A DNA stretch of 47,578 nucleotides from Acidimicrobiia bacterium (GTDB taxonomy: Bacteria; Actinomycetota; Acidimicrobiia; Acidimicrobiales; SZUA-35): NCBI GenBank assembly GCA_029863385.1, contig JAOTVU010000019.1, positions 1 through 47,578 of the forward strand, written 5' to 3'. Below are positions 8,738 to 40,616 of the stretch, piece by piece (the first letter of the stretch is position 1; each line of letters opens with the position of its first letter). Made by a program: the position numbers and the translations under genes. The notes beneath the pieces were generated by a model that saw nothing but the letters and a program-made list of their open reading frames with translations, was not told where the DNA came from and made no database searches.

Positions 8738-8755
8738 CACTGCCGACTGTAGGGT

Positions 8756-8898: not shown

Positions 8899-8899
8899 A

Positions 8900-8913: not shown

Positions 8914-8955
8914 ATCCGCCGAGCCACACGCCTCGCGGGTCACACGCCGGAAAGG

Positions 8956-9864: not shown

Positions 9865-9882
9865 CCCGGTCGGGCAATGACA

Positions 9883-9937: not shown

Positions 9938-10071
9938 TTCTGTGTGACAACACCGACATCGACCTCGGGTGAGCAACGCCGAGCGTATTAAGATCCACGT
10001 GCTGGACTCCTGTCGGAACCACCGGCGGACCTGGCAACCACATAACAGCAACAAAGGGGAGTAACACTCAC

Positions 10072-11139: not shown

Positions 11140-11194
11140 TGGTAGTCAGCACACGCTGAGCCGAACGATCACCATCGTGTGATCCTCGGTACCG

Positions 11195-11235
11195 GAACAG
11201 GCTCGGCTCTCGGAACACGGGGGCCGGGCCTGTTC
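11195..11235 (+). terminator. Intercistronic hairpin between binding-protein and permease genes
   Basis: GAACAGGC (11195-11202) pairs perfectly with GCCTGTTC (11228-11235); an inner CGGC/GCCG pair (11204-11207 with 11223-11226) extends it. No U-tract follows and the next gene is co-directional, so partial termination or 3'-end protection of the upstream mRNA is more likely than full termination. A smaller stem (11167-11184) precedes it. Confidence 0.5.
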
Positions 11236-11295
11236 ACTATCGGACCGCCGCCCGTTAGCGGCACGACAGACAAAACGAAGGGGGATACGAGCCAC

Positions 11296-13272: not shown

Positions 13273-13286
13273 AGAGGATCAACAAC

Positions 13287-14078: not shown

Positions 14079-14137
14079 CTCAGGCCGTTCATCCATCACG
14101 GTTCACGACCTCACATCCAAGGAGCACTCACAGATCC

Positions 14138-15109: not shown

Positions 15110-15111
15110 CG

Positions 15112-16329: not shown

Positions 16330-16363
16330 GCGGGGATTCGAACGACGACACGACCGCGAAAGG

Positions 16364-16381
16364 ATGAGCACTGACCGATGA
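16364..16381 (+). other. Five-codon minimal ORF ending on the iolG start
   Basis: ATG-AGC-ACT-GAC-CGA-TGA (16364-16381) follows GAAAGG directly, and its stop overlaps the iolG ATG as ATGA. It may be a chance product of a badly spaced ribosome site, or a tiny leader ORF coupling translation into iolG. Confidence 0.25.
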
Positions 16382-25054: not shown

Positions 25055-25179
25055 CGTGCTCTCCCTTGACTTTCAGCCGTCGTCGTGGCCAGGCTACCCG
25101 TTGTCGGGATCGCCATCCCCGGCGCGTCGACGGAGTCCGGGGCCGACGACTCGGGATCGCCCCGGCCCCCGACGCAAGC

Positions 25180-25185
25180 TACCCT
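25180..25185 (+). promoter_or_regulatory. Candidate -10 (TACCCT), leaderless start of HTH regulator
   Basis: TACCCT is followed by 7 nt and the ATG at 25193, with no ribosome site. Confidence 0.5.
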
Positions 25186-25192
25186 ACGGGCC

Positions 25193-25609
25193 ATGAACGA
25201 CGAGCAGGCGCCTGCGCCCGTCGACCTCGACGGGGCGGTCCCGGCAGTCGAGCTGCAGGAGTTTCTGGTTCATCTGGCTCCAATCGTCGATGCGTTCGGA
25301 GGGGCCATCGTTCCGGTCTCGGACGCCGACCCGGCGGACACGCCGATCATCTGGAGGGGAACGCTCGTCGGTTATGTTCAGGGCTCGGAGCTCCATGGAG
25401 CCCTCGATCGCCTCGTGGGCGTGGTGGAACGAGAAGCCGGGTGCAGCCTCGAGGAGATGAATCGGTCGCAGAAGCAGACCGCCGTTCGTCGCCTCGATGA
25501 ACTCGGGGCGTTCCTACTCCGAGGAGCGGTGGAGGACATCGCCCACCTGATGGGGGTGAGCCGGGTGACGCTCTACAGCTACCTCAACGCCATCCGCCCG
25601 AAGGACTGA
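25193..25609 (+). CDS. Small YheO/DauR-like helix-turn-helix regulator
   Basis: 138 residues. The N-terminal part ('ELQEFLVHLAPIVDAFGGAIVPVSDADPADTPIIWRGTLVGYVQG') looks like a shortened PAS-like sensor. The C-terminal half 'LDELGAFLLRGAVEDIAHLMGVSRVTLYSYLNAI' matches the HTH_22 DNA-binding domain of YheO/DauR-type regulators (pattern: G-F-x-[LI]-[KR]-G-A-V-x2-[VI]-A-x-x-[LM]-G-V-S-R-x-T-[VL]-Y). YheO itself is about 240 residues, so this is a compact version. An upstream in-frame ATG (25085) is unlikely because the TANNNT element and family start favour 25193. It is divergent from the BMP lipoprotein and might control it. Confidence 0.75.
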   Translation: MNDEQAPAPVDLDGAVPAVELQEFLVHLAPIVDAFGGAIVPVSDADPADTPIIWRGTLVGYVQGSELHGALDRLVGVVEREAGCSLEEMNRSQKQTAVRRLDELGAFLLRGAVEDIAHLMGVSRVTLYSYLNAIRPKD

Positions 25610-25647: not shown

Positions 25648-25687
25648 CCGACCTCCGGGCTTCCGGAAGGAGGGAAGCGGAGGTCGG
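25648..25687 (+). terminator. Hairpin after the HTH regulator
   Basis: CCGACCTCCG (25648-25657) pairs perfectly with CGGAGGTCGG (25678-25687); the loop contains an inner palindrome CTTCCGGAAG. It lies 38 bp after the stop and has no U-tract. Confidence 0.55.
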
Positions 25688-26132: not shown

Positions 26133-27521
26133 ATGCAACCGGCCGCCGCCAATCACGGTTTCCCCCTCGCTCCCAGGCAACCCGCCTCTCGGGAGCACGC
26201 AACCGGCTTCCTATCAAAAAACAGGCCTGTCGAGACCGCCGATGACGGACGGAACCCACCGGTTGCCGTATCCGTGAGGAACGTGGGCAAGACGTTCCGA
26301 GGCGGCACCTCGGACCCCAAGACCCTGAAAGAACGACTGCTGACCAACCTGTCGTCCAATACATCCAAATTTCTGGCTTTGGATGATGTCTCATTTGATA
26401 TTTATCAGGGAGAAACATTCGGGATAATAGGCCACAATGGGTCCGGTAAGAGCACCCTACTCAAGATCATTGCCGGCATCATGCGTCCCACAACCGGAGA
26501 AGTGCTCGTAGCTGGTCGGCTGGCCGCCCTGCTCGAGTTGGGAGCCGGCTTCCATCCCGAGCTCACCGGGGCTGAAAACATCCACCTCAACGGCTCCATC
26601 CTCGGACTGGAGGAGTCCTACGTTGATGAGCTGTTCCAGGACATCGTCGACTTCGCCGAGATCGAGGATTTCATCCACGCCCCGGTCAAGCATTATTCGT
26701 CGGGCATGAGAGCCCGTCTCGGGTTCTCGGTGGCCACCTACCTCGATCCCGACGTCCTCCTGATCGACGAGGTGCTCTCGGTCGGTGACGAGCAGTTTCG
26801 ACGCAAGTGCATGGAGCGGGTCCATCGGTTCCGATCCATGGGCCGCACCATGATCCTGGTCAGCCACAGTGCAAGCACCGTGGCCCAGCTGTGCCAACGC
26901 AGTGCCGTGCTGTCTCACGGCCGGTTGTTGCATGTCGGCGATTCGACCGAGGCCATCGCCATCTACCGGGCCGCCCTGGCGGCTGGACGGCGCAGGCGCG
27001 GTACCGCGGCCACCACCGTCGAGGAGCCGACCGAGCATCGGGCGGTGTCGATCATCGATACCCGGGTGGTGACCGGTGACGACACGGAACCGACGCTGAA
27101 CCCGGGCGACGACGTGACCATCGAGATCAAGCTGGAGGCGTTCGACCAGATCGAAGGCCGTCTGAGACTCGCCGTGAAGTCCGAGGAGGGGACGGTGCTG
27201 ATCAACCAGGCCAGTACGCCGCTGCTGGGCCGCAATCTCGAGTTGGAACCGGGCACCGCAACAGTCACGTTCACCCTCCACTCGGTTCCTCTCCGGGATG
27301 GCACCTATACGGTCGACGCCATTGCCGAGTCGGCCGATGGGCGCACGACCCTGCACCGGGTGGGGAGCGCCTGCGCCTTCCGAATAGTCAGTCGAAATCC
27401 CCATTTGGGGCTGGTTGCCGTCGATCTGTCGTGCCAACTCGGCGACGGATCCGACCCGATCGGCTCATCCTCGGGTCCGACCCGAGATCGGAGCCGGACC
27501 CCACAAGAGGTCGCCCAGTGA
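26133..27521 (+). CDS. wzt: Polysaccharide ABC exporter ATPase with C-terminal cargo domain (Wzt-like)
   Basis: 462 residues. The ABC domain has 'FLALDDVSFDIYQGETFGIIGHNGSGKSTLLKIIAGI' (Walker A), 'LAALLELGAGFHPELTGAENIHLNGSILGL' (Wzt/TagH-specific Q-loop block), signature HYSSGMRARLGFSVA, Walker B 'DVLLIDEVLSVGDEQF' and switch histidine SHS. After a variable linker, residues about 300-430 form a beta-rich Wzt_C-like domain ('PGDDVTIEIKLEAFDQIEGRLRLAVKSEEGTVLINQ'). In E. coli O9a and Klebsiella O12 this domain recognises the chemically capped end of the finished glycan. The first about 50 residues are nonconserved. The 5' part of the gene is visibly more AT-rich than the rest. It overlaps the permease start by GTGA. 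Confidence 0.9.
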   Translation: MQPAAANHGFPLAPRQPASREHATGFLSKNRPVETADDGRNPPVAVSVRNVGKTFRGGTSDPKTLKERLLTNLSSNTSKFLALDDVSFDIYQGETFGIIGHNGSGKSTLLKIIAGIMRPTTGEVLVAGRLAALLELGAGFHPELTGAENIHLNGSILGLEESYVDELFQDIVDFAEIEDFIHAPVKHYSSGMRARLGFSVATYLDPDVLLIDEVLSVGDEQFRRKCMERVHRFRSMGRTMILVSHSASTVAQLCQRSAVLSHGRLLHVGDSTEAIAIYRAALAAGRRRRGTAATTVEEPTEHRAVSIIDTRVVTGDDTEPTLNPGDDVTIEIKLEAFDQIEGRLRLAVKSEEGTVLINQASTPLLGRNLELEPGTATVTFTLHSVPLRDGTYTVDAIAESADGRTTLHRVGSACAFRIVSRNPHLGLVAVDLSCQLGDGSDPIGSSSGPTRDRSRTPQEVAQ

Positions 27522-28441
27522 CCACTACGGCATCACCACCACCAAACGAGCTGCGACCCATCGGCACCAGTCGACCGGCGGCCAGCGCAACTCGCCAGCT
27601 GGCCGAGGTGTGGAACCATCGAAGCCTCCTGCTCACTCTGGCCGGACGCGACGTCAAGTCCCGGCACCGCAACAGCCTCCTCGGCTTCACCTGGAACCTC
27701 CTGAACCCGCTTCTGCAGATGGTGATCTACACGGTGGTGTTCACCTATTTCATGCCCGGGGGAACCCCTATGTTTCCCCTCAAGCTGTTGACCGGCACCG
27801 CCATCTTCAGCCTGTTCACCACCGGCGTCACCAACGGCACCACTTCGGTGACCGGCAACACGGCTCTGGTCTCCAAGATCTGGTTCCCCCGGGAGGTGCT
27901 GCCGGTCGCCGCCATTGTGTCCAATCTGGTCACCTTCGCAAGCCGGATCAGCATCCTGGTCGTGGCTATGATCATCTACCGTCATCCACCGGCCTGGTCC
28001 TTGTTGTGGCTGGCCGTGTGCGCAGTGTTGGTCACCATGGTTCTGGCCACTGGCGCTGCCGTGCTGTTGTCGGCGCTCAATGTCTATTTTCGCGACGTCC
28101 AGCACTTCCTGGACCTGATCCTGCTGGCGCTGTTCTGGTTCACCCCGATCATCTGGAGCTACGGATTCGTGGCCAACGAACTGATCAACCGGTTCGGTCC
28201 CCGCTGGGAGCGTCTGGCGATGTTGAATCCGCTCACGCCCGTCGTAACCGTCTTCGAACGGGTGCTCTACAATCCAGCCGCCCTACCGCCGGACGGGCAG
28301 CACCAGTTCGAACTGATCCTGCGACCCACGAGCTGGCATCTCCAGAACCTGGGCTACTCGCTCGTCGTCGGCCTGGTCCTCCTCTACATCGGGCTGCGGG
28401 TGTTCTCCCGACTTGAAGGCTCGTTCGTCGAAAACCTCTAG
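27518..28441 (+). CDS. wzm: Polysaccharide ABC exporter permease (Wzm/TagG-like)
   Basis: 307 residues of the ABC-2 family. The N-terminal motif 'LAGRDVKSRHRNSLLGFTWNLLNPLLQMVIYTVVFTYFM' (cytosolic amphipathic helix then helix 1) is a hallmark of O-antigen and teichoic acid exporters. About six membrane segments follow, including 'ALNVYFRDVQHFLDLILLALFWFTPIIWSY' and a C-terminal 'YSLVVGLVLLYIGLRVFSRLEGSFVENL'. With the upstream ATPase it should move a lipid-linked glycan across the cytoplasmic membrane. The GTG start at 27518 overlaps the wzt stop by 4 bp, so the two are translationally coupled; longer readings would overlap wzt heavily. Confidence 0.92.
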   Translation: MTTTASPPPNELRPIGTSRPAASATRQLAEVWNHRSLLLTLAGRDVKSRHRNSLLGFTWNLLNPLLQMVIYTVVFTYFMPGGTPMFPLKLLTGTAIFSLFTTGVTNGTTSVTGNTALVSKIWFPREVLPVAAIVSNLVTFASRISILVVAMIIYRHPPAWSLLWLAVCAVLVTMVLATGAAVLLSALNVYFRDVQHFLDLILLALFWFTPIIWSYGFVANELINRFGPRWERLAMLNPLTPVVTVFERVLYNPAALPPDGQHQFELILRPTSWHLQNLGYSLVVGLVLLYIGLRVFSRLEGSFVENL

Positions 28442-28457
28442 TCAGCGGCCCACCACC

Positions 28458-31400
28458 ATGACCGATTTCGACCCGTCCCCCGACCTCGACCTTCGAACCG
28501 AACGCCGACTGCTGACCGACCAGATCCGGGAACTGGAGCTTCGGGTGGCCACGAACCACGCCCACTGCGAGACCGCGGCCGCCGAGTTGGAGGCTTTCAG
28601 GAGCCGCCGTCTGGTGAGAGTCTCGACCCGCCTGGCCGACGCTCTGGCCCCCCGGCTCGACCGCCTCGCGCGGGTCATTCCGCTATCCTGGCCCCCGGGG
28701 CGATGGGGGCCGTCGGCCGGACCTCCGCAAGGCACCGATCAACCACCACCCGGCCGGTCCTCGTTTGGGACCCTTGGCCTGGTATCGCCGGCGGAGCTGG
28801 TTGACGAGCTGTCGGCGGTGGCACTGGATCGCCGCCGAGAGTCACTGGTCAGCGTGATCATGCCCACCCACAATCGAGCCCGTCTGATCGGGCGGGCCAT
28901 CGAGTCGGCACTGGAGCAGACCCATGAGAAGCTCCAGCTGATCATCGTCGACGACGGCAGTACCGATGACACCGCTGCGGTGGTGGCTCGCTACCAGGCC
29001 ACCACCGATCGCATCACGATGGTGAACCAGCAGCGGGCCGGCCCGGCCCGAGCCCGAAACCGGGCCTTGGAGCTGGCACGCGGCGACTTCTGCGCCTACC
29101 TCGACAGCGACAACGTGTGGACGCCACGCTTCCTCGAGGTGATGGTCGGGCTTCTGATCGATTCCTCCAGCGCCTGCGGCTACGCCGCTCTGGCCCGCGA
29201 GATCGACGGTAACACGGTGGCGGTGGTCAACGAGCCCTTTGACTGGGGCCGGTGCCGCCAATCCAACCTGGTCGACCTGAACGTACTCGTTCACCGAGCC
29301 GGTCTTCCGGAGGCCCACTTCGACCCGTCGCTGGGTCGTAACGAGGACTGGGATCTGGTCCTGCGCTTGGCCCGGCGCCACCAGATGCTGCACGCCCCTT
29401 TCATCGGCTGCCGCTATCGTGACGACAACTCGACCGACCGGGTTTCGGTCACCGGGCTCAACGTCTTCACCAGAATCGTGCGGGCCAAACACCCGGCCGA
29501 CGGAGGGCCAACGTTGGCTACCGACATGGTGGCGGCCTCGCTGCCGCTCTCCGTATCGATCCGGGTGGCCGCACCTTTCGCCGACCGGCTCGAATGGGGT
29601 GATCACCATCTGGCCAATGCGATGGCTCGATCGCTGGCCGGACTCGGACACCGGGCCGTGGTCCGCTACCGGGACTCGCTGCTTTCGGCCGGGGATGAGG
29701 ATGTCAACATCGTGCTACGAGGAGCCGTCCCCTTTGCCCCAAGACCGTGGGCGGTCAACGTCCTGTGGATCATCTGCGACCCCGAGCAGGTGGAGCCCTC
29801 CGAGCTCCAGTCGTTCGATCTGGTTCGGGTTGCCTCGGCGTCCTACGCCGCCCTGCTGAACTGTGTGCCCGGCATCTCTGCTCGCCCGCTACTCCAGGCC
29901 TCAGGGTTCACGCCACCCGAGCAACGCCGCCCGTTGCCGTCGTCGAACTCGGACTTCGAAGCCGACGACTGGAAGTCCTGTGTGGACGGTCGGGTCCTGT
30001 TCGTCGGAAACAGCCGCGGTGATCATCGTCCGCTGATCGACATGGCGGTGGCGGTCGGATTGAATCCCGTCGTCGTTGGATCGGGCTGGGACGGCACCAC
30101 GGTAGCGCCCCACGTGGTAGCCGACTTCGTCGACAACCGGGATCTACCCTCTCTGTACCGGCGGGCGAGCTGGGTCCTGAACGACCACTGGCCATCCATG
30201 GTCGACTTCGGTATCGTGTCGAACCGCCTCTTCGACGTGCTGGCGGCCGGAGGGATGGCGGTGTCGGACCGGCTGGACGAGCTCGCCACCGTGCTGCCCT
30301 CAGTGGTTCAGGTCGACGGCGAGGAGCGACTGGCCGAGATCGTGACCGGCACCCGCCCCGATCCCCTTCCGTGGACCTCCAGCCTCCACCTCACCGACCG
30401 GATGACCACCCTGATGTCCGACGTGGCCGATTGGGTCATCGGGCAACAGGGACTGCGCTCTGATATCAGCCCGGATGTCGACGATGGTGATGCGACCCGG
30501 TTCAGGTCGACCGAGCGGCCTTCGATTGTCGTGGTGGCACCGGGCTGGAGTGACGGGGCCGATCCCCGCCACCACCTTTGCTTCCGGTCGTTGATCGCCC
30601 CCCTGACCTCCGGGTTGAGCGGACAACGTTTCGACGTCGTCCCGGCCGCCAGTCTGGCGTTGGCGGTCGATCACGACGGCCCGATGGTGGTGTTCGTCAC
30701 TCGACCATCCGACGTGAGCCAACTGTCCGACGGCGCCCGGTGGCCCGATCGGCCGTACGTGTTGGCCACCCACTCGGGTCACGAGTCCGCAGCAACCGTG
30801 GTGGCTGCGACCGAGCACTGGGGCCGACCGCTGGCCCACTGGGAACTGGCCGGCAGTCCTTGCATCGACCCCCGGCTTTGGCGGCGTTACCACCGCCGAT
30901 CAATGCCCCCGCCTGAGCACCAGCGGCAACCTCGGATCATTGAACTGAGCGGGATCGGGAACGGCCGACCGCCCACAGTACTCACCCCCGCGGGCGACGA
31001 CGGCGGCGCAGCGGCGGCACTGATGGGCGACGGTTTGGACCACTACCGGCTCTGTCGGCTGGTCCGAGGCTCAGGGCCATTCGATCTGGCGGTGATCGGC
31101 GGGGCGGTCGACGCTGATCCTGATCGGTCGTCTCTAGTGTATGAAGCACTGGTCGGGCGGGCCCTCGGGTCACTCGTGGTGATCCGATCCGAGACCAACG
31201 GCCAAACAAACGAAGTGACGGGCGAACGCGAAGGCACGGTTGACGAGCTCGGGACTCTTGGGATCGACCCCGCCGATCTCTGGATCATCGAGCACGGGTT
31301 CGGGGAGGGCCTTGTGGAACAACTCAGCGATCGATGGCCGGATCTTCGCTTGCAACGGCGGGCCGACCGTCGGTTCCCGGACGCCGCTTTCTGGCATCGC

Positions 31401-31508
31401 TTCGGTTCACGGGCCGCCGCCGACCGTCTCTTCAGGCAGTGGCCGGAGTGGCCCGCTCCTCGAGATAGCCGTGCTCGGACAGGAAGCGGCGGAGGTTGGT
31501 CTCGATGA
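28458..31508 (+). CDS. Large bimodular glycosyltransferase (GT2 plus CgeB-like GT)
   Basis: 1016 residues. Residues 8-55 are a short charged helical segment. About 130-310 is a GT2 (GT-A) domain: 'SVIMPTHNRARLIGRAIESALEQ', 'LIIVDDGSTDDT' and metal-site DSDN near 217. About 370-640 is a CgeB/DUF3880-like GT-B module: 'DRLEWGDHHLANAMARSLAGLGH', 'ILFVGNSRGDH'-type segment near 516, 'RASWVLNDHWPSMVDFGIVSNRLFDVLAAGG'. Residues about 690-1016 match nothing I recognise but contain Rossmann-like strands ('SIVVVAPGWSDG', 'FDLAVIGGAVDAD'). Two sugar transfers by one protein suggest synthesis of a repeat unit. The ATG at 28458 follows wzm by 16 nt. The last 77 bp overlap the convergent sulfotransferase. 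Confidence 0.85.
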   Translation: MTDFDPSPDLDLRTERRLLTDQIRELELRVATNHAHCETAAAELEAFRSRRLVRVSTRLADALAPRLDRLARVIPLSWPPGRWGPSAGPPQGTDQPPPGRSSFGTLGLVSPAELVDELSAVALDRRRESLVSVIMPTHNRARLIGRAIESALEQTHEKLQLIIVDDGSTDDTAAVVARYQATTDRITMVNQQRAGPARARNRALELARGDFCAYLDSDNVWTPRFLEVMVGLLIDSSSACGYAALAREIDGNTVAVVNEPFDWGRCRQSNLVDLNVLVHRAGLPEAHFDPSLGRNEDWDLVLRLARRHQMLHAPFIGCRYRDDNSTDRVSVTGLNVFTRIVRAKHPADGGPTLATDMVAASLPLSVSIRVAAPFADRLEWGDHHLANAMARSLAGLGHRAVVRYRDSLLSAGDEDVNIVLRGAVPFAPRPWAVNVLWIICDPEQVEPSELQSFDLVRVASASYAALLNCVPGISARPLLQASGFTPPEQRRPLPSSNSDFEADDWKSCVDGRVLFVGNSRGDHRPLIDMAVAVGLNPVVVGSGWDGTTVAPHVVADFVDNRDLPSLYRRASWVLNDHWPSMVDFGIVSNRLFDVLAAGGMAVSDRLDELATVLPSVVQVDGEERLAEIVTGTRPDPLPWTSSLHLTDRMTTLMSDVADWVIGQQGLRSDISPDVDDGDATRFRSTERPSIVVVAPGWSDGADPRHHLCFRSLIAPLTSGLSGQRFDVVPAASLALAVDHDGPMVVFVTRPSDVSQLSDGARWPDRPYVLATHSGHESAATVVAATEHWGRPLAHWELAGSPCIDPRLWRRYHRRSMPPPEHQRQPRIIELSGIGNGRPPTVLTPAGDDGGAAAALMGDGLDHYRLCRLVRGSGPFDLAVIGGAVDADPDRSSLVYEALVGRALGSLVVIRSETNGQTNEVTGEREGTVDELGTLGIDPADLWIIEHGFGEGLVEQLSDRWPDLRLQRRADRRFPDAAFWHRFGSRAAADRLFRQWPEWPAPRDSRARTGSGGGWSR

Positions 31509-32289
31509 ATTCGATCTCGTCGCCGGTCAACTCGTTGGCCCATCCGCCTACTTTGGCGTTGCGGACGAACTGACCCGGCCCCCGCTCGGCCACCGGCACA
31601 TTCTCGTAGGAGTTGGCTTTGATTGCGGCGGCCAGTCGTTCGTCGTCGACTTCGAGCCCGAACACATGACTGAGGTGACGAAGCTGGGATTCGGTGTCGG
31701 CGCGGAGCCGCTCGTAGTGCATCTCATAGAGCTGACCGGGGGCCGCCTGCTCCCGAAGGTCACGCAACTTCACGCCCAGGTTCTGGAAGCGTCCGACAGT
31801 CTGACGGACGATCTGGTTCCGATCGAACTCGGTGGTCAGCCGCTCGGCCATCCAAGATCCCGGTCGACGAGCGTCAATGAGGGAGGCAGTGACATCGCGG
31901 GGATCGCGGATCATGACAATGATCTTGGACTTTGGCATTATCTCGGCGATGAGCGGGGCAACATACGAAGAATTAGGCTCCTTGATCAACAAATAGCCAT
32001 CCTCAGAATGCTCCGGTGAACATCTGGAAATTATGTCATGAAAGAAAGAATTGAGAGCTGGTTGCCAAGCGTTACGTAATGGCGTGGAGAACCAGAACGT
32101 AGGGTCATCAAGACGCAGGGGATCGTTTCGCTCAAGATTGTTGCGGAACGTGACGCAGTGCCCGATTCCCGGCTCGTTCCAAAGGTAGCTGTCAAGCCAA
32201 TCAGCGAGAAGCTTGGCCATCCATGTCGTCCCAGATCTCGGGTGTCCAAAGATCCACAGAATGTCGCTTTCCTGGTATTTTTCTGCCAT
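31432..32289 (-). CDS. Sulfotransferase family protein
   Basis: 285 residues. The PAPS 5'-phosphosulfate loop is 'LWIFGHPRSGTTWMAKLL' (residues 11-28), and the 3'-phosphate-binding segment is 'KIIVMIRDPRDVTASLI'. 'LYEMHYERLRAD' and the terminal 'ELTGDEIEFIETNLRRFLSEHGY' are typical of carbohydrate/aryl sulfotransferase_1 proteins. It would sulfate a glycan or lipid acceptor from PAPS in the cytoplasm. It is the only minus-strand gene of the glycan locus and overlaps the end of the convergent glycosyltransferase by 77 bp. Its first about 400 bp and the gap before it are distinctly AT-rich against the rest of the window, suggesting acquisition from another genome. AGGATGGAG precedes the ATG. 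Confidence 0.88.
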   Translation of the reverse strand: MAEKYQESDILWIFGHPRSGTTWMAKLLADWLDSYLWNEPGIGHCVTFRNNLERNDPLRLDDPTFWFSTPLRNAWQPALNSFFHDIISRCSPEHSEDGYLLIKEPNSSYVAPLIAEIMPKSKIIVMIRDPRDVTASLIDARRPGSWMAERLTTEFDRNQIVRQTVGRFQNLGVKLRDLREQAAPGQLYEMHYERLRADTESQLRHLSHVFGLEVDDERLAAAIKANSYENVPVAERGPGQFVRNAKVGGWANELTGDEIEFIETNLRRFLSEHGYLEERATPATA

Positions 32290-32371
32290 TACTCCATCCT
32301 GGTGAGCCGCGAGATACGATCCAATTACACCGCATTACGTTTCAACGGTATCTTGGGATTGAGCAACGAAC

Positions 32372-34171
32372 ATGCATACTGAGGAGAAAGATTACCCAAA
32401 GACGATGCCGGCTCGTGGCGGACAGTCGACCTCGTCCGTGACGTCGCCGGTCGTCGTTCTAGGACCTCACCGATCGGGAACGAGCGCCCTGGCCGGATGG
32501 TTGGCCGAGTGCGGGCTGTGGCTGGGCGACGTCATTGAGGTCGGCCCCGACAACCCGGCCGGCTATCACGAGAACCGGGCTGTGCTGTCGGCCCACATCG
32601 ACCTGCTCGCTTCGATGCAGCGGGACTGGCAATGTCCGCCCGAGTGGTTCGACGCCTTCTTGTTCGATTTGGAGCCTTTGCGATCAGCGGTCAAGTCGCT
32701 GGCGGGCTGCGGTGACCGGTTGTGGGGAATCAAAGACCCGAGGATGCTGTATCTACTGCCGGCCTGGTGCCATGTCGTTCCGGCCATGACCTTCGTTGGC
32801 ACCTTTCGACACCCCTCGGCCATCGCCGACTCCCTGGTTCGGCGCAACGGGTTCGACCGCCGCTTTGCCCTCGACCTGGCCGAACGCCAGATCGAGCGGC
32901 TGCATGCTCTGTGGTTGCGATATCGGTTTCCACTGATCGAGTTCGGATTGGACAACGACTCGTTCGCACCACGGGTCAGAGCGGTGGCTGAGATGCTGGG
33001 GCTCAACCCGGCAACGGCCAGCGGCTCACCGTTCGACCCAGGGTTGATTCACCATCAATGGTCGGATTCCGAGTTGGTCTCGATGACGGATCAAATGCAA
33101 CCGTCAGCCGCCTACGCGGCCCTGGCCGAGGCGGCCTATGAGCCGCTGACCAGGCCGTCGACGGTGACCGCCGAAGATCTCGCCTCGGTGTTGACCGACC
33201 TTGTGCGCCCCAGACGGGATCGGCTGAGCACCAGGGGTCCCAGCTTCGAGGAGCGCCGCCGGTTGTGCTCCGACCACGCCGCCGAGTTCGCCATCGAAGT
33301 CGCCGCCACCGCCTGCATCACCCCGACCGATATGTCCACCAGGCTTGAGGCTGGCACGGCCACCGGTAATGTCCCGGGAACCCCGATGCAGCCAATCAGC
33401 CATGTCGTGGCCGCAGCCGTGGCCGAGGTGGGAGGCTCCGAGGCGATCGAAGCCGTGCTACAGACATATCGGAGTCAGGTCATGGCCGACGCCATCGCCG
33501 TGTTCGACGGCTTTTTCACCGACGAAGCTCCGTTGCCGGAAGACCGCTGGTGGCCCCGCTCGGCGGTCACCAGCCATCGCACCAGGCCGCCCCACCATAT
33601 CCACGTCGACCAGCTCCGAGCTGCGGCCGCCGTCTCCGGCTGGTACCTGGCCACTGTGGCCGATATCGGCCCCGGTCAGGGAAGAAGATTGGCCAGCTTC
33701 GTGACGAATCCAACTCGCCGTCGGGAACAGCGCACCCACGAAGAGTGGCATCAGATGGTCGCCGAGCGGGACACAACCATTGCCCTACAGGCCGGCCACA
33801 TCGAGCACCGCGACAATCTGCTGGCACAGATCGATGAGCGCCGAGGGGATGAGCAGGCCGAGTTGACTGCTCGACTGGCCGAACAGGCTACCGAGATCGA
33901 GCGGTTGAGCATCGAGCTGGCCGACCTGGACCAGGTCCGACGGGCGGAGTACGAACGATTGCTCGACGACAATCAAGGCCTGCGACACTGGGTCGGCGAA
34001 CTGGCGGCCGAGAAGGACTTTTTGGCGCATCGCCTACACCTCGCAGAACAGCATCACCGGGTGACGTTGCTGTCGCCCCGGCAGGTCCACTTTTTGAAGC
34101 GGGTGATTCCCCGACCGCTGGTCCCGCTGCTCCAGCGTGGGCGGCGGCTCTACCGCCGGGTTCACTCGTGA
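32372..34171 (+). CDS. Sulfotransferase-like protein with C-terminal coiled coil and basic tail
   Basis: 599 residues in three parts. Residues about 25-230 are a P-loop sulfotransferase-like domain: 'VVVLGPHRSGTSALAGWLAE' (27-46), 'DNPAGYHENRAV', 'GIKDPRMLYLLP', 'FVGTFRHPSAIADSLVRRNG'. About 230-450 is a helical region of unknown function. About 455-563 is a long heptad-rich coiled coil, and 564-599 is a strongly basic tail likely to bind membrane lipids. This resembles the layout of E. coli WbdD (capping enzyme, coiled-coil ruler, membrane tail) but with sulfotransferase-like chemistry; that parallel is inference. Start choice is ATG 32372; ATG 32405 is an alternative just before the domain. 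It is divergent from the sulfotransferase and overlaps the next gene by GTGA. Confidence 0.82.
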   Translation: MHTEEKDYPKTMPARGGQSTSSVTSPVVVLGPHRSGTSALAGWLAECGLWLGDVIEVGPDNPAGYHENRAVLSAHIDLLASMQRDWQCPPEWFDAFLFDLEPLRSAVKSLAGCGDRLWGIKDPRMLYLLPAWCHVVPAMTFVGTFRHPSAIADSLVRRNGFDRRFALDLAERQIERLHALWLRYRFPLIEFGLDNDSFAPRVRAVAEMLGLNPATASGSPFDPGLIHHQWSDSELVSMTDQMQPSAAYAALAEAAYEPLTRPSTVTAEDLASVLTDLVRPRRDRLSTRGPSFEERRRLCSDHAAEFAIEVAATACITPTDMSTRLEAGTATGNVPGTPMQPISHVVAAAVAEVGGSEAIEAVLQTYRSQVMADAIAVFDGFFTDEAPLPEDRWWPRSAVTSHRTRPPHHIHVDQLRAAAAVSGWYLATVADIGPGQGRRLASFVTNPTRRREQRTHEEWHQMVAERDTTIALQAGHIEHRDNLLAQIDERRGDEQAELTARLAEQATEIERLSIELADLDQVRRAEYERLLDDNQGLRHWVGELAAEKDFLAHRLHLAEQHHRVTLLSPRQVHFLKRVIPRPLVPLLQRGRRLYRRVHS

Positions 34172-36348
34172 ACGGCCACTTCCGCCCGGTCGACGTCATC
34201 GTCCCGGTCTACAACGCCATCGAAGCCGTCGAGCGCTGTCTGCACAGCGTGCTGGCCAACACTTCTGACGATCCCGACGTTCGCATCGTGGTGGCCGACG
34301 ACGCCAGCCCCGACCCGGAGATGGCCGTCCTCTGCACCCGACTGGCCGATGCTCATCCCCGGCTGACCATCCGCCGCCGCCCGACCAACGTGGGTTTCCC
34401 CGGCAACTGTAACGAGTCGATGGCCGAAGCAAAGGGCGACGTTGTCCTACTGAACAGCGACACGGTGGTCCCGGCGGGATGGCTGGAGCCGCTACGGCGT
34501 CTGGCTCACTCCTCGACCCGAGTGGGCAGTGTGACCCCGCTCACCTCCAACGGCCAGATCTGCAGCGTGCCGGTGTGGCTGACGTCCAACACCTATCCAC
34601 CGTCGATCACGGTGGACGACCTCAATGACGTGGCCCGGGCTGTGGGATACGGCGACTGGATTGAGATTCCGACCGGGGTGGGCTTCTGCCAGTACTTCAC
34701 CCAGCCGGGTCTGCAAGCCGTCGGCCTCTTCGATACTGCCATGTTCGGACGTGGCTACGGCGAGGAGAACGATCTGTGCCTACGCCTGCGCCACCACGGC
34801 TTCGTCAACTTGCTGTGCGACACCGTCTTCGTCCATCACGAGGGCGGGCTGTCATTCGGGGAATCGACGCCGGAGCGGCTGAGGGTCAATCTGGCCAGGC
34901 TGAACGCTCGCTGGCCTGGCTACGACGGCTTCATCGCCCGCTTCATCGATGAAAACCCCCTGGCGGGGGTGCAGGCCCGGTTCGGTTTGGAACTCCTGCG
35001 GCGCATCAAACCGCCCGGGAAATTGCGAATTCTCCAGGTGCTGCACAACCCGATCCGGTCGGGCCATATCGGGGGGACGGAGTTCCATGTCGACGATCTG
35101 GTTTCAGGTAGTGACGAGGACCACGTGATCCTCTCCACCGTCGACGATGTTCCGGTGGTACAACATGGCGATGTAACCGGCCTCAAGCCGTTTCCGATCA
35201 CCAGCACCGCCGTCACGACACACGACTGGATTCGCCCGCTGCTGAGCACCGGGATCGATGTCATTCATGTTCACCACTTGGCCGGACTGGGTTTTCAGCG
35301 GGTTGCGGCCCTTCTCGACGGGGCGTCCCGTTGTGAGATTCCACTTGTGTTCACCGCCCACGACTACTTCGCCCTCTGCCCCGGCATTCAGCTGCGGGAC
35401 GCTGAGTCCGGTGTCGCCTGCCGTTCCGATGTCGGTCAGGCCTGTCCCGGTTGTGACCGGGTAAGCGTCGAACTTGTCGGCGGCCCCCGGGACATCTGGC
35501 GGAACCAGTGGCGGAGTCTGCTGGCCGACTGCACCGTGGTCGCCCCATCCCAGGCGGCCGCCGAGCGCCATCGGGCGGTGTGGGGGTCACTACCCCGGCT
35601 GGAGGTGATACCCCATGGCCTCGAACGCAGCCCGGTTGACCTGAGCGGCTCGACCGATCTGGCCGGCCCAGATGGCGTCAGCCGGTCGATGCCGGTCAAG
35701 ATCGCCGTGATCGGTTACGGAGGTGCTCACAAGGGTGACCGGGAGCTGGCGGCAATCATCGAGCATCTGTCGGGCCGGGGTTTCGAATGGCACCTGTTCG
35801 GCCGGGAGGCCCCGACCCCAACCGCAGACGATCCTGACGGCGGGGCGACTCTGCGGGAAGACGTCGTCCATCACGGTTACTACCAGCGTGATCAAATCAC
35901 CCGCCTGCTGGCCGACGGTTCGTTCACCGCCGCCCTGACCCTACCCAACTGGCCGGAGACCTTCTCGTACACGCTGTCCGAAGCGTGGCTGGCCGGCCTG
36001 TTCGTTTTCGCGTCGGACCAGGGCGCGATCGCCGAGAGGATCGCCGCGACCGGCGCCGGGGTCGTCCTTTCATCAGACGACCCGGCCGAGCGGGCTCGGC
36101 TGATCGCCGAAACCGTGGCCTCACCCGCGGAGATGGCTCGGCTGGCCGCCGCCGCCCGGCGAGCTGGTCGCAATCACCCCACGGTTGGTGCTATGAGCGC
36201 TGCCTACGACCGGCTGTACCGCCGCTTGGCCGCCGAACACGGAAAGCAGGCTCCGGCGACCAGCTCGACGCTGCCGTACCCATGGAGCGCGGATGAGAAG
36301 TCGCAGCTGGTCGGCATGTTCCGGTCGCCGCTGCCGACCGGCGACTGA
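34168..36348 (+). CDS. Bifunctional glycosyltransferase (GT2 fused to GT4)
   Basis: 726 residues. Residues about 5-260 are GT2: 'VDVIVPVYNAIEAVERCLHSVL', 'VVADDASPDPEM', 'NVGFPGNCNESMAEAKGDVVLLNSDT', 'FGRGYGEENDLCLRLRHHG' (acidic base motif EEND). About 290-710 are GT4 (GT-B): 'VLHNPIRSGHIGGTEFHVDDLV', 'IDVIHVHHLAGLGFQRVAALL', 'VFTAHDYFALCPGIQL' with a cysteine cluster (C-x-x-C near 'ACPGCDR'), 'EVIPHGLE', 'LTLPNWPETFSYTLSEAWLAGLFVFASDQGAI'. It probably adds two sugars in succession to the exported glycan. The GTG start overlaps the preceding stop by 4 bp, so it is coupled to the coiled-coil protein. Confidence 0.92.
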   Translation: MNGHFRPVDVIVPVYNAIEAVERCLHSVLANTSDDPDVRIVVADDASPDPEMAVLCTRLADAHPRLTIRRRPTNVGFPGNCNESMAEAKGDVVLLNSDTVVPAGWLEPLRRLAHSSTRVGSVTPLTSNGQICSVPVWLTSNTYPPSITVDDLNDVARAVGYGDWIEIPTGVGFCQYFTQPGLQAVGLFDTAMFGRGYGEENDLCLRLRHHGFVNLLCDTVFVHHEGGLSFGESTPERLRVNLARLNARWPGYDGFIARFIDENPLAGVQARFGLELLRRIKPPGKLRILQVLHNPIRSGHIGGTEFHVDDLVSGSDEDHVILSTVDDVPVVQHGDVTGLKPFPITSTAVTTHDWIRPLLSTGIDVIHVHHLAGLGFQRVAALLDGASRCEIPLVFTAHDYFALCPGIQLRDAESGVACRSDVGQACPGCDRVSVELVGGPRDIWRNQWRSLLADCTVVAPSQAAAERHRAVWGSLPRLEVIPHGLERSPVDLSGSTDLAGPDGVSRSMPVKIAVIGYGGAHKGDRELAAIIEHLSGRGFEWHLFGREAPTPTADDPDGGATLREDVVHHGYYQRDQITRLLADGSFTAALTLPNWPETFSYTLSEAWLAGLFVFASDQGAIAERIAATGAGVVLSSDDPAERARLIAETVASPAEMARLAAAARRAGRNHPTVGAMSAAYDRLYRRLAAEHGKQAPATSSTLPYPWSADEKSQLVGMFRSPLPTGD

Positions 36349-36424
36349 ACGCTCCATCACAGACCCCGGGTCACTGTTACGTCCTCTGAATGCCTGCATT
36401 GCCACTACCCAAAGGAGCTCGATC

Positions 36425-37282
36425 ATGGCCGACAACAAACTCGAGGCTGCGTTCTTCGACCAGCACGACAACCAACTGACACGCTCGGTGGCCTGGTCGG
36501 CCATCCCTTTCTTCCAGTCCCGGCTGCACCAGCGGTTGGACCTGGTGGCCACCGCCACCGCCCACCTGGAACGCACCGAGGATCTTCGAGCTCTGACCTT
36601 GGGCTGCGGCGACATGACCGGCGAGTACGGGCTGCTGCGACGGTTCCCCGTGACCCAGATCGTGGCCTATGACCTGAGCGAGGGACAACGGGCCAACTTC
36701 TACGAGCGGACCTACGACGAGTCGGCCGGCATCGACGTCGACTACCGCATCGGTGACGCCGCCGCCGACACCCTGGGCAGCGAGGAATTCGATCTCGTCT
36801 ACATCCAGCAGTCGTTCCACCACTTCGAGGAGGTGGAGAAGGTCGCGGCCAACATCCGAATGGCTCTACGTCCCGGTGGGGTATTCCTGCTCAACGACTA
36901 CATCGGCACCCCGTTCCTGCAGCGCAGCGAGCGCCAGCGGGCGGCCACCCGCCGCATCTGGCGACATCTCCCCGCCCGTCTCCGGACAGGGGCCAACGGT
37001 GAGGTGTGGGACGACATACTCATCCCGCCGATCGAGAACCTGCCTCCCCACGAGGCGGTTCGCTCCGACGCCATCCTGCCCGCGCTGCGGGAGAACTTCG
37101 ACATCATCGATGAGCACCAGTTCGCCGGGCTGTTGTTTCCCCTGTTCAATGGCTTCGCCCAGAACTACACCGAGGCCGACATGACCTTCGTCCGCTCGAT
37201 GTGGGAGGTCGACGAGTGGATGATCGCCGAGGGAGCCATCGAGCCCAACTTCATTCGGGGCCTGTACCGGGCCAAAGCCTGA
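36425..37282 (+). CDS. SAM-dependent methyltransferase
   Basis: 285 residues with a class I Rossmann methyltransferase core: motif I 'RALTLGCGDMTGEYGLL' (near 55-72), acidic loop 'IVAYDLSEGQRANF', 'YRIGDAAADTLGSEEFDLVYIQQSFHHFEEVEKVAANIRMALRPGGVFLLNDYIG' (motifs II-III; HHFE resembles the HF-E of type 11 enzymes). The C-terminal part 'LPALRENFDIIDEHQFAGLLFPLFNGFAQNY' is common in methyltransferases of glycan loci. It may methylate a sugar or the glycan end. AAAGGAG 8 nt before the ATG at 36425 sets the start; upstream in-frame codons are rejected. The 76-bp gap from the GT gene is the widest in this transcript, and the stop is 6 bp from convergent tadC. Confidence 0.85.
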   Translation: MADNKLEAAFFDQHDNQLTRSVAWSAIPFFQSRLHQRLDLVATATAHLERTEDLRALTLGCGDMTGEYGLLRRFPVTQIVAYDLSEGQRANFYERTYDESAGIDVDYRIGDAAADTLGSEEFDLVYIQQSFHHFEEVEKVAANIRMALRPGGVFLLNDYIGTPFLQRSERQRAATRRIWRHLPARLRTGANGEVWDDILIPPIENLPPHEAVRSDAILPALRENFDIIDEHQFAGLLFPLFNGFAQNYTEADMTFVRSMWEVDEWMIAEGAIEPNFIRGLYRAKA

Positions 37283-37288
37283 GATGGA

Positions 37289-38182
37289 TCAAAGGCCGCT
37301 GCCGAGAATGCGGATCGCCACCGGACCGAGGAGCACGACGAAGAGGGCCGGCAGCATGCACAGCACCATCGGGAACACCAGCTTCACCGGGAGGCGCATG
37401 GCCTGCTCCTCGGAGTGGAGGCGCCGGATCTCCCGCATGTGTTCGCTCTGGACCCGGGCCACCCGGGCCATGGGAACGCCGAGTCCGTCGGCCTGCTTGA
37501 TCGCGGAGACGAACTGGCGGACCTCCTGCGTGCCGGTGCGGGTGGCGATGTCCTCCAACGCCTCGTTGCGGGGCCGGCCGAGCCGAATGGCGTGAAGGGC
37601 GCGGGCGAACTCGTCGACGAGGGGGCCCGACGTGGAGCGGGCGATCTTGTCGACGGCGGAGTTGAAGCCGAGGCCCGCTTCGAGCAGGACGGTGAGCTGG
37701 TCGAGGACGTCGGGTAGGGCGGCGACGATTTCCCGCTGCCGGGCGTCGGCCCGCCGTCGAACGTAGGCGTCGGGGGCGACGAAGCCGACGAAACCGAGCA
37801 GCAATGTCCACAGGAGTCGGGATCGGGGTTCGGCTCCGACCGAGATGGCGAAGCCGCCGACGAGGCCGGCCGTGATCAGCAACGACTTGAGGGCGACGAA
37901 GCCCTCCAGCGGCAGCCGGCCGGCCAGACCGGCGTGAACCAGATTGCGGGTGGTCGAGTCGGCGAAGCCGCCCGGCGTGAGACGGCGGGCCTGACGGGCG
38001 ACGGCGTCGATCACGGGAATCACAACGCGATCCCGAATCGATTCGCCGAGGTAGCTGTCGTGCAGGGCCTTGGGAGCCGTGAGCTCGAAGCGGGCCGCAG
38101 CAGAGCGATCACCGGGCATGAGCGCATACCCGAGGAGCGGGACGGCGAGAACGGCCAACACGCTGGCGACAATGACGGTCAT
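37289..38182 (-). CDS. tadC: Tad pilus inner-membrane platform protein TadC
   Basis: 297 residues of the T2SSF family. N-terminal hydrophobic segment 'MTVIVASVLAVLAVPLLGYAL'; helices 'LKSLLITAGLVGGFAISVG' and 'LLWTLLLGFVGFVAPD'; the cytoplasmic T2SSF core 'REIVAALPDVLDQLTVLLEAGLGFNSAVDKIARSTSGPL' and 'LEDIATRTGTQEVRQFVSAIKQADGLGVPMARV'; last helix 'VLCMLPALFVVLLGPVAIRIL'. With TadB it forms the membrane base on which TadA drives pilin assembly. AGGAGG 6 nt before the ATG gives the start. It is the last gene of the minus-strand tad operon, 27 bp after tadB. Confidence 0.92.
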   Translation of the reverse strand: MTVIVASVLAVLAVPLLGYALMPGDRSAAARFELTAPKALHDSYLGESIRDRVVIPVIDAVARQARRLTPGGFADSTTRNLVHAGLAGRLPLEGFVALKSLLITAGLVGGFAISVGAEPRSRLLWTLLLGFVGFVAPDAYVRRRADARQREIVAALPDVLDQLTVLLEAGLGFNSAVDKIARSTSGPLVDEFARALHAIRLGRPRNEALEDIATRTGTQEVRQFVSAIKQADGLGVPMARVARVQSEHMREIRRLHSEEQAMRLPVKLVFPMVLCMLPALFVVLLGPVAIRILGSGL

Positions 38183-38209
38183 CTGCTGCCTCCTGTCATC
38201 CGCGTGCCT

Positions 38210-39241
38210 CTACAGCACCGCGGCGTTGATCATGCTCCGGATCCACAGCCCGCCAGCGACCAGCATGACCGTGACCAGCCCTGTCATCCAGTACGTCAGC
38301 TGCGTGCCCCAGATTCCGTCGAAGTACTCCGGATTGGTGAGGCCGATGAAGACGGCGAGGCCCGGCGGGAGCACGAAGAGGACGAGGGCGGACATGCGGG
38401 CCTCGGCGGTCAGCGCCGAGACCTGGGCGTTGAGGCGGGCCCGCGCCCGGATCGTCGCCGCAACGTTCTCCAGGACCTCGACCAGGTCGCCGCCCACAGT
38501 GGCGTTGATCTCGATGGCGTCCACCACCCAACGCAGATCGACGCTGTCCATCCGTTCCGAAACGTTCCGGAGCGAATCGGTGAGGCTACCGCTCACCCGG
38601 GACTCGTTGAGCGCTCTGGTCAGTTCGGAACTGATCGGATCCTCGTACTCCTTGGCCACCGTGCCGAGTCCGACGTTCATCGAGTAGCCGACACGAAGGA
38701 CGTTGGCGATCGACGACAGCACGTCGGGTAGAGCGTCCTCGAAAGCGGCCTTCCGGCGGCGGAACCGCTGATCGATCACGATGCGGGGCAACACGACGGC
38801 CAGGAAGGCGCCGACGGCGGCACCGAAGACTCCTCGCCACAGGAAGCCGACGCCGGCGCACAGCAGCACGGCGAAGGCTACGAGCATCACCAGCTCCCCG
38901 ACCTGCAGTCGCAGGCCCGCACGTTCGAGACGTTTGGCCGTGTAGTCCCGGGCGTCGGTTCGCAACAGCCGCTCGATGGCCCGCAGGACGGCGTCACGCA
39001 GGGCGTCGGCCATCGTCGGTTTCGGTATCCCGGCCGCCCGCCCGATACGGGGGGCCGTGGCGCGGGAGCCGGACCGGCTGAAGAGCAGGAACGACAACAC
39101 CACGATGGTGACGGCCACGCAGCCCGTGCCGATCCACAACAGCCAGTCGCCCTCCGTCAGCCCGGGGCGTGGAATGACGGTCACCGATTCCGCCGGCAAC
39201 ACCCGATACGACAACTCGGAGATCGGCCGGGCATAGCTCAT
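38210..39241 (-). CDS. tadB: Tad pilus inner-membrane platform protein TadB
   Basis: 343 residues, T2SSF family. N-terminal helix 'WLLWIGTGCVAVTIVVLSFLLFS', a pair 'LVMLVAFAVLLCAGVGFLW' and 'VFGAAVGAFLAVVLPRIVID', then the core 'AFEDALPDVLSSIANVLRVGYSMNVGLGTVAKEYEDPISSELTRAL' and 'DLRWVVDAIEINATVGGDLVEVLENVAATIRAR', ending in two helices. It is the TadC partner. The ATG at 39241 overlaps the tadA stop as ATGA; the longer open frame upstream lies inside tadA and is not used. Confidence 0.92.
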   Translation of the reverse strand: MSYARPISELSYRVLPAESVTVIPRPGLTEGDWLLWIGTGCVAVTIVVLSFLLFSRSGSRATAPRIGRAAGIPKPTMADALRDAVLRAIERLLRTDARDYTAKRLERAGLRLQVGELVMLVAFAVLLCAGVGFLWRGVFGAAVGAFLAVVLPRIVIDQRFRRRKAAFEDALPDVLSSIANVLRVGYSMNVGLGTVAKEYEDPISSELTRALNESRVSGSLTDSLRNVSERMDSVDLRWVVDAIEINATVGGDLVEVLENVAATIRARARLNAQVSALTAEARMSALVLFVLPPGLAVFIGLTNPEYFDGIWGTQLTYWMTGLVTVMLVAGGLWIRSMINAAVL

Positions 39242-40614
39242 CGCCGAACCTCGGCACCCGGGTCGAAGATCGACTGATCGATCTGGATCGAGTACTTCGC
39301 CATCTTGTCGAGCTTGCGGGGCCGGACACCGGTGGCCCGGAGGGTCTCCTTGCCCGGCCCAAGACCCGGGTCGAAGGTGAAGATCTCGTCGAGTGAGATC
39401 TGATCCCCCTCGAGGCCGATGACCTCGGTGATGCTGGTGACCATGCGTCGACCGTCCCGCAGGCGCTCGAGCTGCACGATCACGTCGATGGCGGCCGCCA
39501 TCTGCTCCCGCACGGCCCGGGCCGGCAGTTCGAATCCGGCGAACATCACCATCGTCTCGAGACGGCTGGTGGCCTCCCGTGGGGCGTTGGCGTGGAGGGT
39601 GGTCAGCGAACCGTCGTGGCCGGTGTTCATGGCCTGGAGCATGTCGAGGGCCTCGGCGCCGCGGCACTCGCCGATCACGATGCGGTCGGGGCGCATTCGG
39701 AGGCTGTTGCGAAGCAGATCCCGGCTGGTGACCTCGCCGGTTCCCTCCAGGTTCGGTGGCCGACACTCGAGCCGGATCAGGTTCCGTTGCCGCAGTTTCA
39801 GCTCGACGGCGTCCTCGATCGTGACGATTCGCTCGCTGTCGGGAATGAAGCTCGACAACATGTTGAGGAAGGTGGTCTTGCCGGTGCCGGTACCGCCGGA
39901 GACGAGGATGTTGAGTTTGCCCTGGACGCAGGCCTGGAGGAACGACACGGCCTGCGGGGTGATGCTCCGGCGGTCGATGAGTTCGCTGGCGGTCAGGCCG
40001 CTCTTCATGAACTTGCGAATGGTGAGCGACGGCCCGTCGACCGCGAGCGGTGGGATCACGGCGTTGACCCGGGAACCGTCGGGCAGACGTGCGTCGACCA
40101 TGGGCGACGTCTCGTCGATCCGACGGCCGACGCTGGTCACGATCCGGCTGATGACCTGGCGGAGGTGGGCGTCGGTCCGGAACCTGATGTCCGACATCGA
40201 GATCATGCCGTCGCGCTCGACGAAGATGGCATCGGTCCCGTTCACCATGACCTCGGTGACGGCGTCGTCCTCCAGCAGTGGTTCGATCGGACCGTAGCCG
40301 AGGATGTCGTTGGTGACCGACGTGATCATCTGCCGCTGTTCACGGCTGTCAAGCGGCAGGTTCTCGTCGCGGATCAGGCGTTCGAGCTCCTCGCCGACTA
40401 GCCGGCGGAGCTCCTCCTGCGACAGGTCGGATTCGCTGGTGGCGGTACCCACCTGGTCGACCAGTTTGATCCGGACCCGGTCGCCGAGGCTGTCGAGAAA
40501 CCGACCGGTCTCGGCGTTGCCGATCGACTTGAGCGGAGCCCGCCGCTCAACCGGCCGGGCGTTGCCGGACGAGGAATCGGAATTGAGGTCGGCGAGAAGC
40601 TTTCCCAGGCTCAT
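39238..40614 (-). CDS. tadA: Tad/Flp pilus assembly ATPase TadA (CpaF)
   Basis: 458 residues of the secretion-superfamily ATPases. The N-terminal domain ends in 'ILGYGPIEPLLEDDAVTEVMVNGTDAIFVERDG'. The C-terminal RecA-like domain has Walker A 'ILVSGGTGTGKTTFLNMLSS', Asp box 'RIVTIEDAVELKL', Walker B-like 'RPDRIVIGECRGAEALDMLQAMNTGHDGSLTTLHAN' with the His box, typical of CpaF rather than PilB or PilT. It hydrolyses ATP to polymerise Flp pilins. ATG 40614 follows the tadZ stop by 2 nt; a GTG at 40629 would overlap tadZ and is less likely. The tail after residue about 400 ('EIFTFDPGLG') is normal. Confidence 0.95.
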   Translation of the reverse strand: MSLGKLLADLNSDSSSGNARPVERRAPLKSIGNAETGRFLDSLGDRVRIKLVDQVGTATSESDLSQEELRRLVGEELERLIRDENLPLDSREQRQMITSVTNDILGYGPIEPLLEDDAVTEVMVNGTDAIFVERDGMISMSDIRFRTDAHLRQVISRIVTSVGRRIDETSPMVDARLPDGSRVNAVIPPLAVDGPSLTIRKFMKSGLTASELIDRRSITPQAVSFLQACVQGKLNILVSGGTGTGKTTFLNMLSSFIPDSERIVTIEDAVELKLRQRNLIRLECRPPNLEGTGEVTSRDLLRNSLRMRPDRIVIGECRGAEALDMLQAMNTGHDGSLTTLHANAPREATSRLETMVMFAGFELPARAVREQMAAAIDVIVQLERLRDGRRMVTSITEVIGLEGDQISLDEIFTFDPGLGPGKETLRATGVRPRKLDKMAKYSIQIDQSIFDPGAEVRR

Positions 40615-40616
40615 GG

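Follow-up and report, generated by a model that had tools for sequence, protein, structure and literature searches.

The stretch analysed here, a 47,578-nucleotide contig of an Acidimicrobiia bacterium (JAOTVU010000019.1; hereafter the window, at its full length), carries at 26133-37282 a block of seven genes for an ATP-binding cassette (ABC) exporter of the Wzm/Wzt type, two glycosyltransferases (GT1 and GT2), two sulfotransferase-like proteins (ST1 and ST2) and a methyltransferase (MT). We read the block as a composite locus whose product, a sulfated and perhaps also methylated glycan, would leave the cell through Wzm/Wzt and have sulfate, methyl or another group as its cap, and place the probability of this reading at about one half. 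Sequence profiles and a predicted fold make it very probable that the exporter recognises its surface sugars by a chemical tag. The block is regarded as composite because exporter and sulfation genes differ in their pattern of occurrence: the window seems, from gene content in other genomes, to join a resident, long-kept exporter of the family to a travelling sulfation cassette (ST1, ST2 and GT2). The seven genes span about 11 kb, with gaps almost nil:

Wzt, 26133..27521, plus strand: ABC domain (PF00005, 79 bits) and Wzt_C (PF14524), the cargo domain occupying approximately residues 300-440.
Wzm, 27518..28441 (GTG start chosen), plus strand: ABC-2 type permease (ABC2_membrane, PF01061, 45 bits).
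GT1, 28458..31508 (TTG start at 28413 possible), plus strand: GT2-family domain and Glyco_trans_1_2 (GT-B-type) domain.
ST1, 31432..32289, minus strand: predicted sulfotransferase of the type that uses 3'-phosphoadenosine 5'-phosphosulfate (PAPS) (PF13469, 82 bits; PF00685, 61 bits).
ST2, 32372..34171, plus strand: predicted sulfotransferase-fold domain at residues 19-257 (PF13469, 28.1 bits against a cut-off of 27).
GT2, 34168..36348, plus strand: GT2-family and GT4/GT1-type (GT-B-type) domains.
MT, 36425..37282 (start chosen; an ATG at 36293 would overlap GT2), plus strand: S-adenosylmethionine-dependent methyltransferase (PF08241, 51 bits).

All the gene families listed in a preliminary description of this block are present, ST2 as a marginal case. 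The exporter comprises an ABC ATPase and an ABC-2 permease (79 and 45 bits, as above); against NF050109, a galactan exporter permease model, Wzm scores 75 bits, under the cut-off of 380. GTGA overlaps join Wzt to Wzm (if the latter starts at GTG 27518) and ST2 to GT2, and ST1 lies tail-to-tail with GT1. Both glycosyltransferases, described earlier as bimodular, do have a GT2-family and a GT-B-type domain, but GT1 carries an additional 376 residues: its order is a short coiled-coil-like stretch, the GT2-family domain, the Glyco_trans_1_2 domain and this C-terminal stretch, for which Pfam gave no match at E<=0.01. MT is a separate gene, not joined to the glycosyltransferases in one protein. Pfam detected no Wzx flippase or Wzy polymerase in any of the seven block proteins, to which the search for them was confined. 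In the proposed mechanism, GT1 and GT2 would assemble a lipid-linked glycan at the inner membrane face, ST1 and ST2 would transfer sulfate from PAPS and MT would add a methyl group; the cargo domain of Wzt would grip the non-reducing end, and Wzm/Wzt would move the finished chain out. Exporter and cassette would act on one and the same glycan, and that glycan would be sulfated.

The tail of Wzt is a genuine cargo domain by profile and predicted fold, as had been proposed; the proposal thereby survives the structural check that had been named as able to refute it. The tail scores 56.2 bits with PF14524 (cut-off 30.4), the sole match to that family in the genome, and a profile search of Protein Data Bank sequences with the tail matched a Wzt cargo domain at E 1.8e-12; phmmer with the tail alone returned just weak matches to human immunodeficiency virus protease constructs, the best at E 0.055. 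An AlphaFold2 (AF2) model was built from 28 tails, namely that of the window, 26 of the family and one of the same order, with a confidence score (pLDDT) of 87. The predicted fold aligned with the Aquifex Wzt-CBD (6o14) at Z 15.8 (root-mean-square deviation 2.4, 127 residues aligned), with the O12 Wzt at Z 13.6 and with 2r5o, which we take to be the Escherichia coli O9a protein, at Z 13.5; the first unrelated row stood at Z 12.2. Across the family the mean pairwise identity is 24% in the tail versus 60% in the ATPase part (excluding L035, a locus cut by a contig end), as would be expected for a domain fitted to differing cargo. The tail alignment leaves out L029, L035 and L042.

The cap pocket, however, differs from the Aquifex one. 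There, Trp362, His350, Thr346, Ala348 and Leu300 surround the methyl cap, as set out in PMC9445017; their aligned counterparts here are Arg409, Glu399, Asp395, Ile397 and Ala347, respectively. Of the 28 tails, 18 have Arg in place of Trp362, five have His and none has Trp, so an Aquifex-type methyl-stacking pocket is not kept; in three rows (L039-L041), where the alignment is less sure, a Trp occupies the next column. Arg409 would go well with an anionic cap, though two acidic residues (Asp and Glu) are close by, and Arg at this position is also common in loci that showed no ST1/ST2-type gene in the vicinity.

By family profile and motifs, ST1 classes as a PAPS-type sulfotransferase for which sulfate transfer is predicted. 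It aligns with SULT2B1 (E 2.9e-4) at two loops and at a C-terminal Gly-Trp motif; the cores of these three motifs, which we take to be PAPS-site motifs, are invariant in four genomes. ST2 classes as a sulfotransferase by a marginal profile match and by predicted fold, with sulfate transfer likewise a prediction. Its AF2 model has a mean pLDDT of 67.7, with mostly 77-94 in the sulfotransferase part up to residue 220. The best structural matches are TPST (Z 13.1), 4gox (12.0) and a heparan 3-O-sulfotransferase (10.7), nucleotide kinases following at 9.8; Foldseek returned one match at E<=0.001. The model aligns with sulfotransferases bound to 3'-phosphoadenosine 5'-phosphate (PAP), and residues H33, R34, G36, S38, K121, P123, R124, R146 and S154 are kept in 15 of 15 aligned rows, an alignment that leaves out L061, where the start is absent from the reference.

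Beyond residue 257, the ST2 model has a low-confidence middle, a single predicted helix of 110 residues (456-565) and C-terminal helices at 569-598. A degenerate methyltransferase was suspected by eye at 300-430, where Pfam is silent and AF2 confidence is too low. The layout resembles that of coiled-coil chain terminators, and a terminating role is conceivable. Only residues 492-525 pass the coiled-coil score, and comparable stretches occur in 44 of 437 open reading frames (ORFs) of the neighbourhoods, so this feature is suggestive and not distinctive.

The exporter is a shared possession of the family, for which 39 genomes were compared, the source genome included; 20 of them pass 90% completeness and 5% contamination. 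A Wzt relative was found at E<=1e-30 in 35 of the 39 (34 of the 38 others). Of 29 family loci read, 28 show the tail, the remaining one being the cut L035, and Wzm matched in 17 of 20 family stretches around Wzt (exceptions L047, L053 and L058). The other 38 genomes, many of them incomplete, gave no match to GT2 (E<=1e-30) and no relative of MT (E<=1e-10). Relatives of ST2 at E<=1e-5 occur in nine of the 39, the source genome among them, and in most the match spans the first 160-230 residues. A single gene set conserved across the family is therefore rejected, and the same gene set and order, for which a search among relatives had been suggested, was not found there: the exporter is shared, while GT2 and MT are confined to the source genome among the 39. 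In a broad search for related loci, from which six of 80 (L105-L110) were examined, only distant Wzts were found. Inspection by eye places dTDP-rhamnose genes close to the tailed Wzt in several genomes of the family; in others, methylmalonyl-CoA mutase genes are found there (L043, L045, L046, L048, L054, L056, L060, L061).

The cassette is distributed otherwise. In a wider sample of 395 class genomes, evenly drawn from a larger group, ST1 matched at E<=1e-25 in five: the source genome, three genomes of the family f31 (49-50% identity) and one at 30%. ST2 matched at E<=1e-20 in ten of the 395 and GT2 at E<=1e-60 in ten, the nearest GT2 relatives being those of f31 with 45-50% identity over nearly full length. 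G092 and G288, of f31 and hence of another order by kinship label, carry ST1, ST2 and GT2 in that order on one strand, with extra sulfotransferase-like genes between them and, in G092, also after them; identity of the cassette to its f31 relatives is 32-50% overall. Both genomes have Wzt relatives on other contigs, in which the match ends at about residue 283. In G381 the cassette pieces lie on two short contigs. From these occurrences, ST1-ST2-GT2 is a separable cassette that is also present in another order, probably through lateral transfer.

The islets around these cassettes vary in composition. Those at L196:7524-14141 and L197:6998-12399 consist of ST1, a HIPKTGG-type sulfotransferase-like protein (assigned by motif, with no Pfam match), ST2 and GT2; the L196 islet has an additional PF00685 sulfotransferase (94 bits), and in the L197 islet the second and third genes are fused as one 779-aa ORF. 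At L228:5778-6950 an ST1 fragment adjoins, by eye, an IS110-type transposase, on a contig that also has an ST2-like gene and GT2; this neighbour hints at a possible route of cassette movement.

Loci that link sulfotransferase-like proteins to glycan assembly were found around relatives of GT1. Stretches were taken from 16 of the 17 other genomes with such relatives (G241 was left out); most GT1 matches cover its middle module alone. An ST2-like sequence is present in eight of the 16, Wzm/Wzt in five and both in three (L094, L098, L100). The L094 stretch encodes a 1514-aa protein, adjoining Wzm/Wzt, that begins like ST2 (tblastn, 34% over 25-427; not called by Pfam) and continues with GT2-family and Glyco_trans_1_2 domains. 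A similar fusion occurs in L097, whose 11 kb do not include Wzm/Wzt. Proteins with a sulfotransferase-like start and glycosyltransferase modules lie within 1 kb of Wzt in L098 and L100, the start being recognized at 23.9 bits, under the cut-off, in the former and by a custom profile in the latter. Such fusions beside Wzm/Wzt tie ST2-type proteins to the assembly of ABC-exported glycans. A further protein, of 572 aa, in the same genus (G025, L101:12100-17432) combines a sulfotransferase-like motif at its start with a methyltransferase domain, and its neighbour of 1140 aa begins alike and carries glycosyltransferase domains; in these two proteins Pfam recognizes the methyltransferase and glycosyltransferase parts only.

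Several observations weigh against the reading of one sulfated, exported glycan or favour the view that the two units are independent neighbours, with Wzm/Wzt (perhaps together with GT1) exporting one glycan and ST1-ST2-GT2-MT modifying another molecule. No Wzt match lies within the 20-kb stretches L196 and L197 around the f31 cassette, whose neighbours are, by eye, genes unrelated to glycans, so the cassette need not serve the exporter. The f31 cassette is all on one strand and ST1 is inverted in the window; the block stands as seven adjacent genes, but with Wzt, Wzm, GT1, ST2, GT2 and MT on the plus strand and ST1 on the minus strand it is not the single operon that one block might imply. 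GT2 and MT are missing from the 38 other family genomes, of which 34 have Wzt relatives. An adenosine 5'-phosphosulfate (APS) kinase gene is present in the genome (G000:C284), but APS kinases are common, occurring in 36 of the 39 genomes of the family and in 11 of 14 controls, and PF13469 proteins occur in 38 of the 39; these allow PAPS-dependent sulfation and do not single the locus out. The marginal family membership of ST2 and the Aeromonas salmonicida precedent given below also count against the reading of one sulfated, exported glycan. We nevertheless hold independent neighbours to be rather unlikely, in view of the ST2-like start fused to glycosyltransferase modules beside Wzm/Wzt in L094 and of the almost gapless placement of both units within 11 kb here.

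An alternative in which MT supplies the export cap as a methyl group, in the manner of Aquifex or Geobacillus, and sulfate is a decoration that Wzt does not read, is improbable. The nearest solved cargo domain (8dky) binds 3-O-methyl-mannose (PMC9445017), and a Wzt-linked methyl cap is described in a monoderm (PMC2943079); but the methyl-stacking Trp is Arg409 here and Trp is aligned there in none of the 28 tails (less surely so in L039-L041), MT has no coiled-coil stretch, and MT was not found in the family genomes that keep the tail.

A narrower form of the preferred reading, in which ST2 is a terminator with a coiled-coil ruler that sulfates the chain end and the Arg409 cargo domain admits only sulfate-capped chains, is decidedly improbable. 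A sulfate cap is still conceivable because ST2 is laid out like the coiled-coil terminators and the Aquifex Trp is replaced by Arg. Against it, the Wzts of L094, L098 and L100 lack the tail, their ORFs being 250-254 aa long, so sulfation and the cargo domain do not travel together, and ST2-like proteins are separated from the reading of a cap. The same holds in the family, where ST1/ST2-type matches occur in two of 20 stretches around a tailed Wzt (L047, and L061 about 12 kb away); tblastn detects ST1/ST2-like types only, and ORF calling is poor on L048, L050 and L057-L059. L043 has a further sulfotransferase-like motif near a tailed Wzt, unclassified by Pfam; L099 has a tailed and L085 a tail-less Wzt, both with no sulfotransferase match. 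Near second, less similar Wzt copies, a weak ST1-like match lies on G017:C114 and, among the matches listed, PF13469 places lie about 5 kb or less away on G017:C114 and G029:C32. The preliminary description had held that homologous loci lacking sulfotransferases would tell against it if they made the same glycan. Compared by genes alone, the loci largely do so, and in the reverse direction the cassette occurs without Wzt in 20 kb and ST2-like genes lie near tail-less Wzts. Of its sulfated or methylated glycan with the cap as export signal, the export of a sulfated glycan by this transporter remains plausible, while sulfate as the export cap is without direct support.

Very improbable is the idea that ST1, ST2 or both share no more than the fold with sulfotransferases and that no sulfate is made: ST2 barely exceeds its PF13469 cut-off, its relative in L196 falls below it (24.9 bits) and Aeromonas salmonicida ORF19, a sulfotransferase-domain gene beside wzt, accompanies a glycan reported to be without sulfate (PMC4483657), but the ST1 motifs match SULT2B1 and do not vary among four genomes, nine ST2 residues are kept in every aligned row, and the ST2 model aligns with PAP-bound sulfotransferases.

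Terminator control of the block, suggested earlier, is rejected: six terminator-like sites compare with 6.5 +/- 2.7 in shuffled sequences, and Rfam has no match anywhere in the window. One hairpin stands out:

Hairpin, stem 25648-25657 with 25678-25687, plus strand: folding z -3.4, no T-run behind it.

It starts 39 nt past the stop of a gene for an HTH_22 regulator-like protein (PF13309, 67 bits; 25085-25609, same strand, upstream of wzt) and about 445 nt before wzt, and probably marks the end of that gene, outside the glycan system. By eye, the minus-strand genes right after MT (37289-42682) are those of a Tad pilus, and an inositol-catabolism locus with iolC/iolD/iolB-like genes, a sugar ABC transporter and a LacI-type regulator occupies 1298-17397.

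The export caps described in the papers cited here are methyl, methyl-phosphate and Kdo (3-deoxy-D-manno-oct-2-ulosonic acid). A sulfated or sulfate-capped glycan exported by Wzt would, if confirmed, widen this cap code and give bacteria another way than Wzx/Wzy to make sulfated polysaccharides, with a sulfate-gated exporter in the cap case. The separable ST1-ST2-GT2 cassette would be a handle for finding sulfated glycans in uncultured lineages.

Among known systems, Aquifex aeolicus, Klebsiella O12 and 2r5o share with the present block an ABC exporter with a tail of the same fold (Z 13.5-15.8); in comparison with Aquifex, the cap pocket differs here (Trp362 to Arg409, His350 to Glu399) and the block contains sulfotransferases. 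In the Klebsiella O4/O7 study, every terminated example is reported to have a cargo domain on Wzt (PMC11231755). WbdD of E. coli O9a (PMC3482155) and the Klebsiella O4/O7 proteins (PMC11231755) are described as a catalytic domain followed by a long coiled coil, a layout that the ST2 model resembles, with a C-terminal membrane-associated region after the coiled coil in WbdD (PMC3482155, PMC11231755). Their caps, as given there, are Kdo, methyl or methyl-phosphate, whereas ST2 has a predicted sulfotransferase-fold domain in the catalytic place.

Such glycans had been called uncharacterised in monoderm bacteria. As far as listings of open-access papers show, this holds apart from two published cases. 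The S-layer (surface-layer) glycan of Geobacillus stearothermophilus, a monoderm, is methyl-capped and described together with a Wzm/Wzt pair, in which binding of the cap is predicted for Wzt (PMC2943079); its slg cluster shares with the block Wzm/Wzt, a methyltransferase, there used in capping, and a multi-module glycosyltransferase, but the methyltransferase is inside the transferase WsaE, rml genes lie in the cluster, and the string 'sulfat' is absent from the text consulted. Among cyanobacteria, Microcystis has methyltransferases and sulfotransferases among putative exopolysaccharide genes and a wzm/wzt pair not embedded in a glycan cluster, according to PMC4390846, and synechan of Synechocystis (PMC8205485) resembles the product proposed here as a sulfated exopolysaccharide made with sulfotransferases and differs in coming from a cyanobacterium. 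The second monoderm case, wps-1 of Actinoplanes missouriensis, is an actinomycete locus for a predicted sulfated exopolysaccharide, with mutant phenotypes and the sulfate itself not demonstrated (PMC13390465). Like the present block it combines two sulfotransferases of different families with a methyltransferase, but it is of the Wzx/Wzy type, Wzt going unmentioned in the text consulted, whereas the block described here would pair such enzymes with a Wzm/Wzt exporter.

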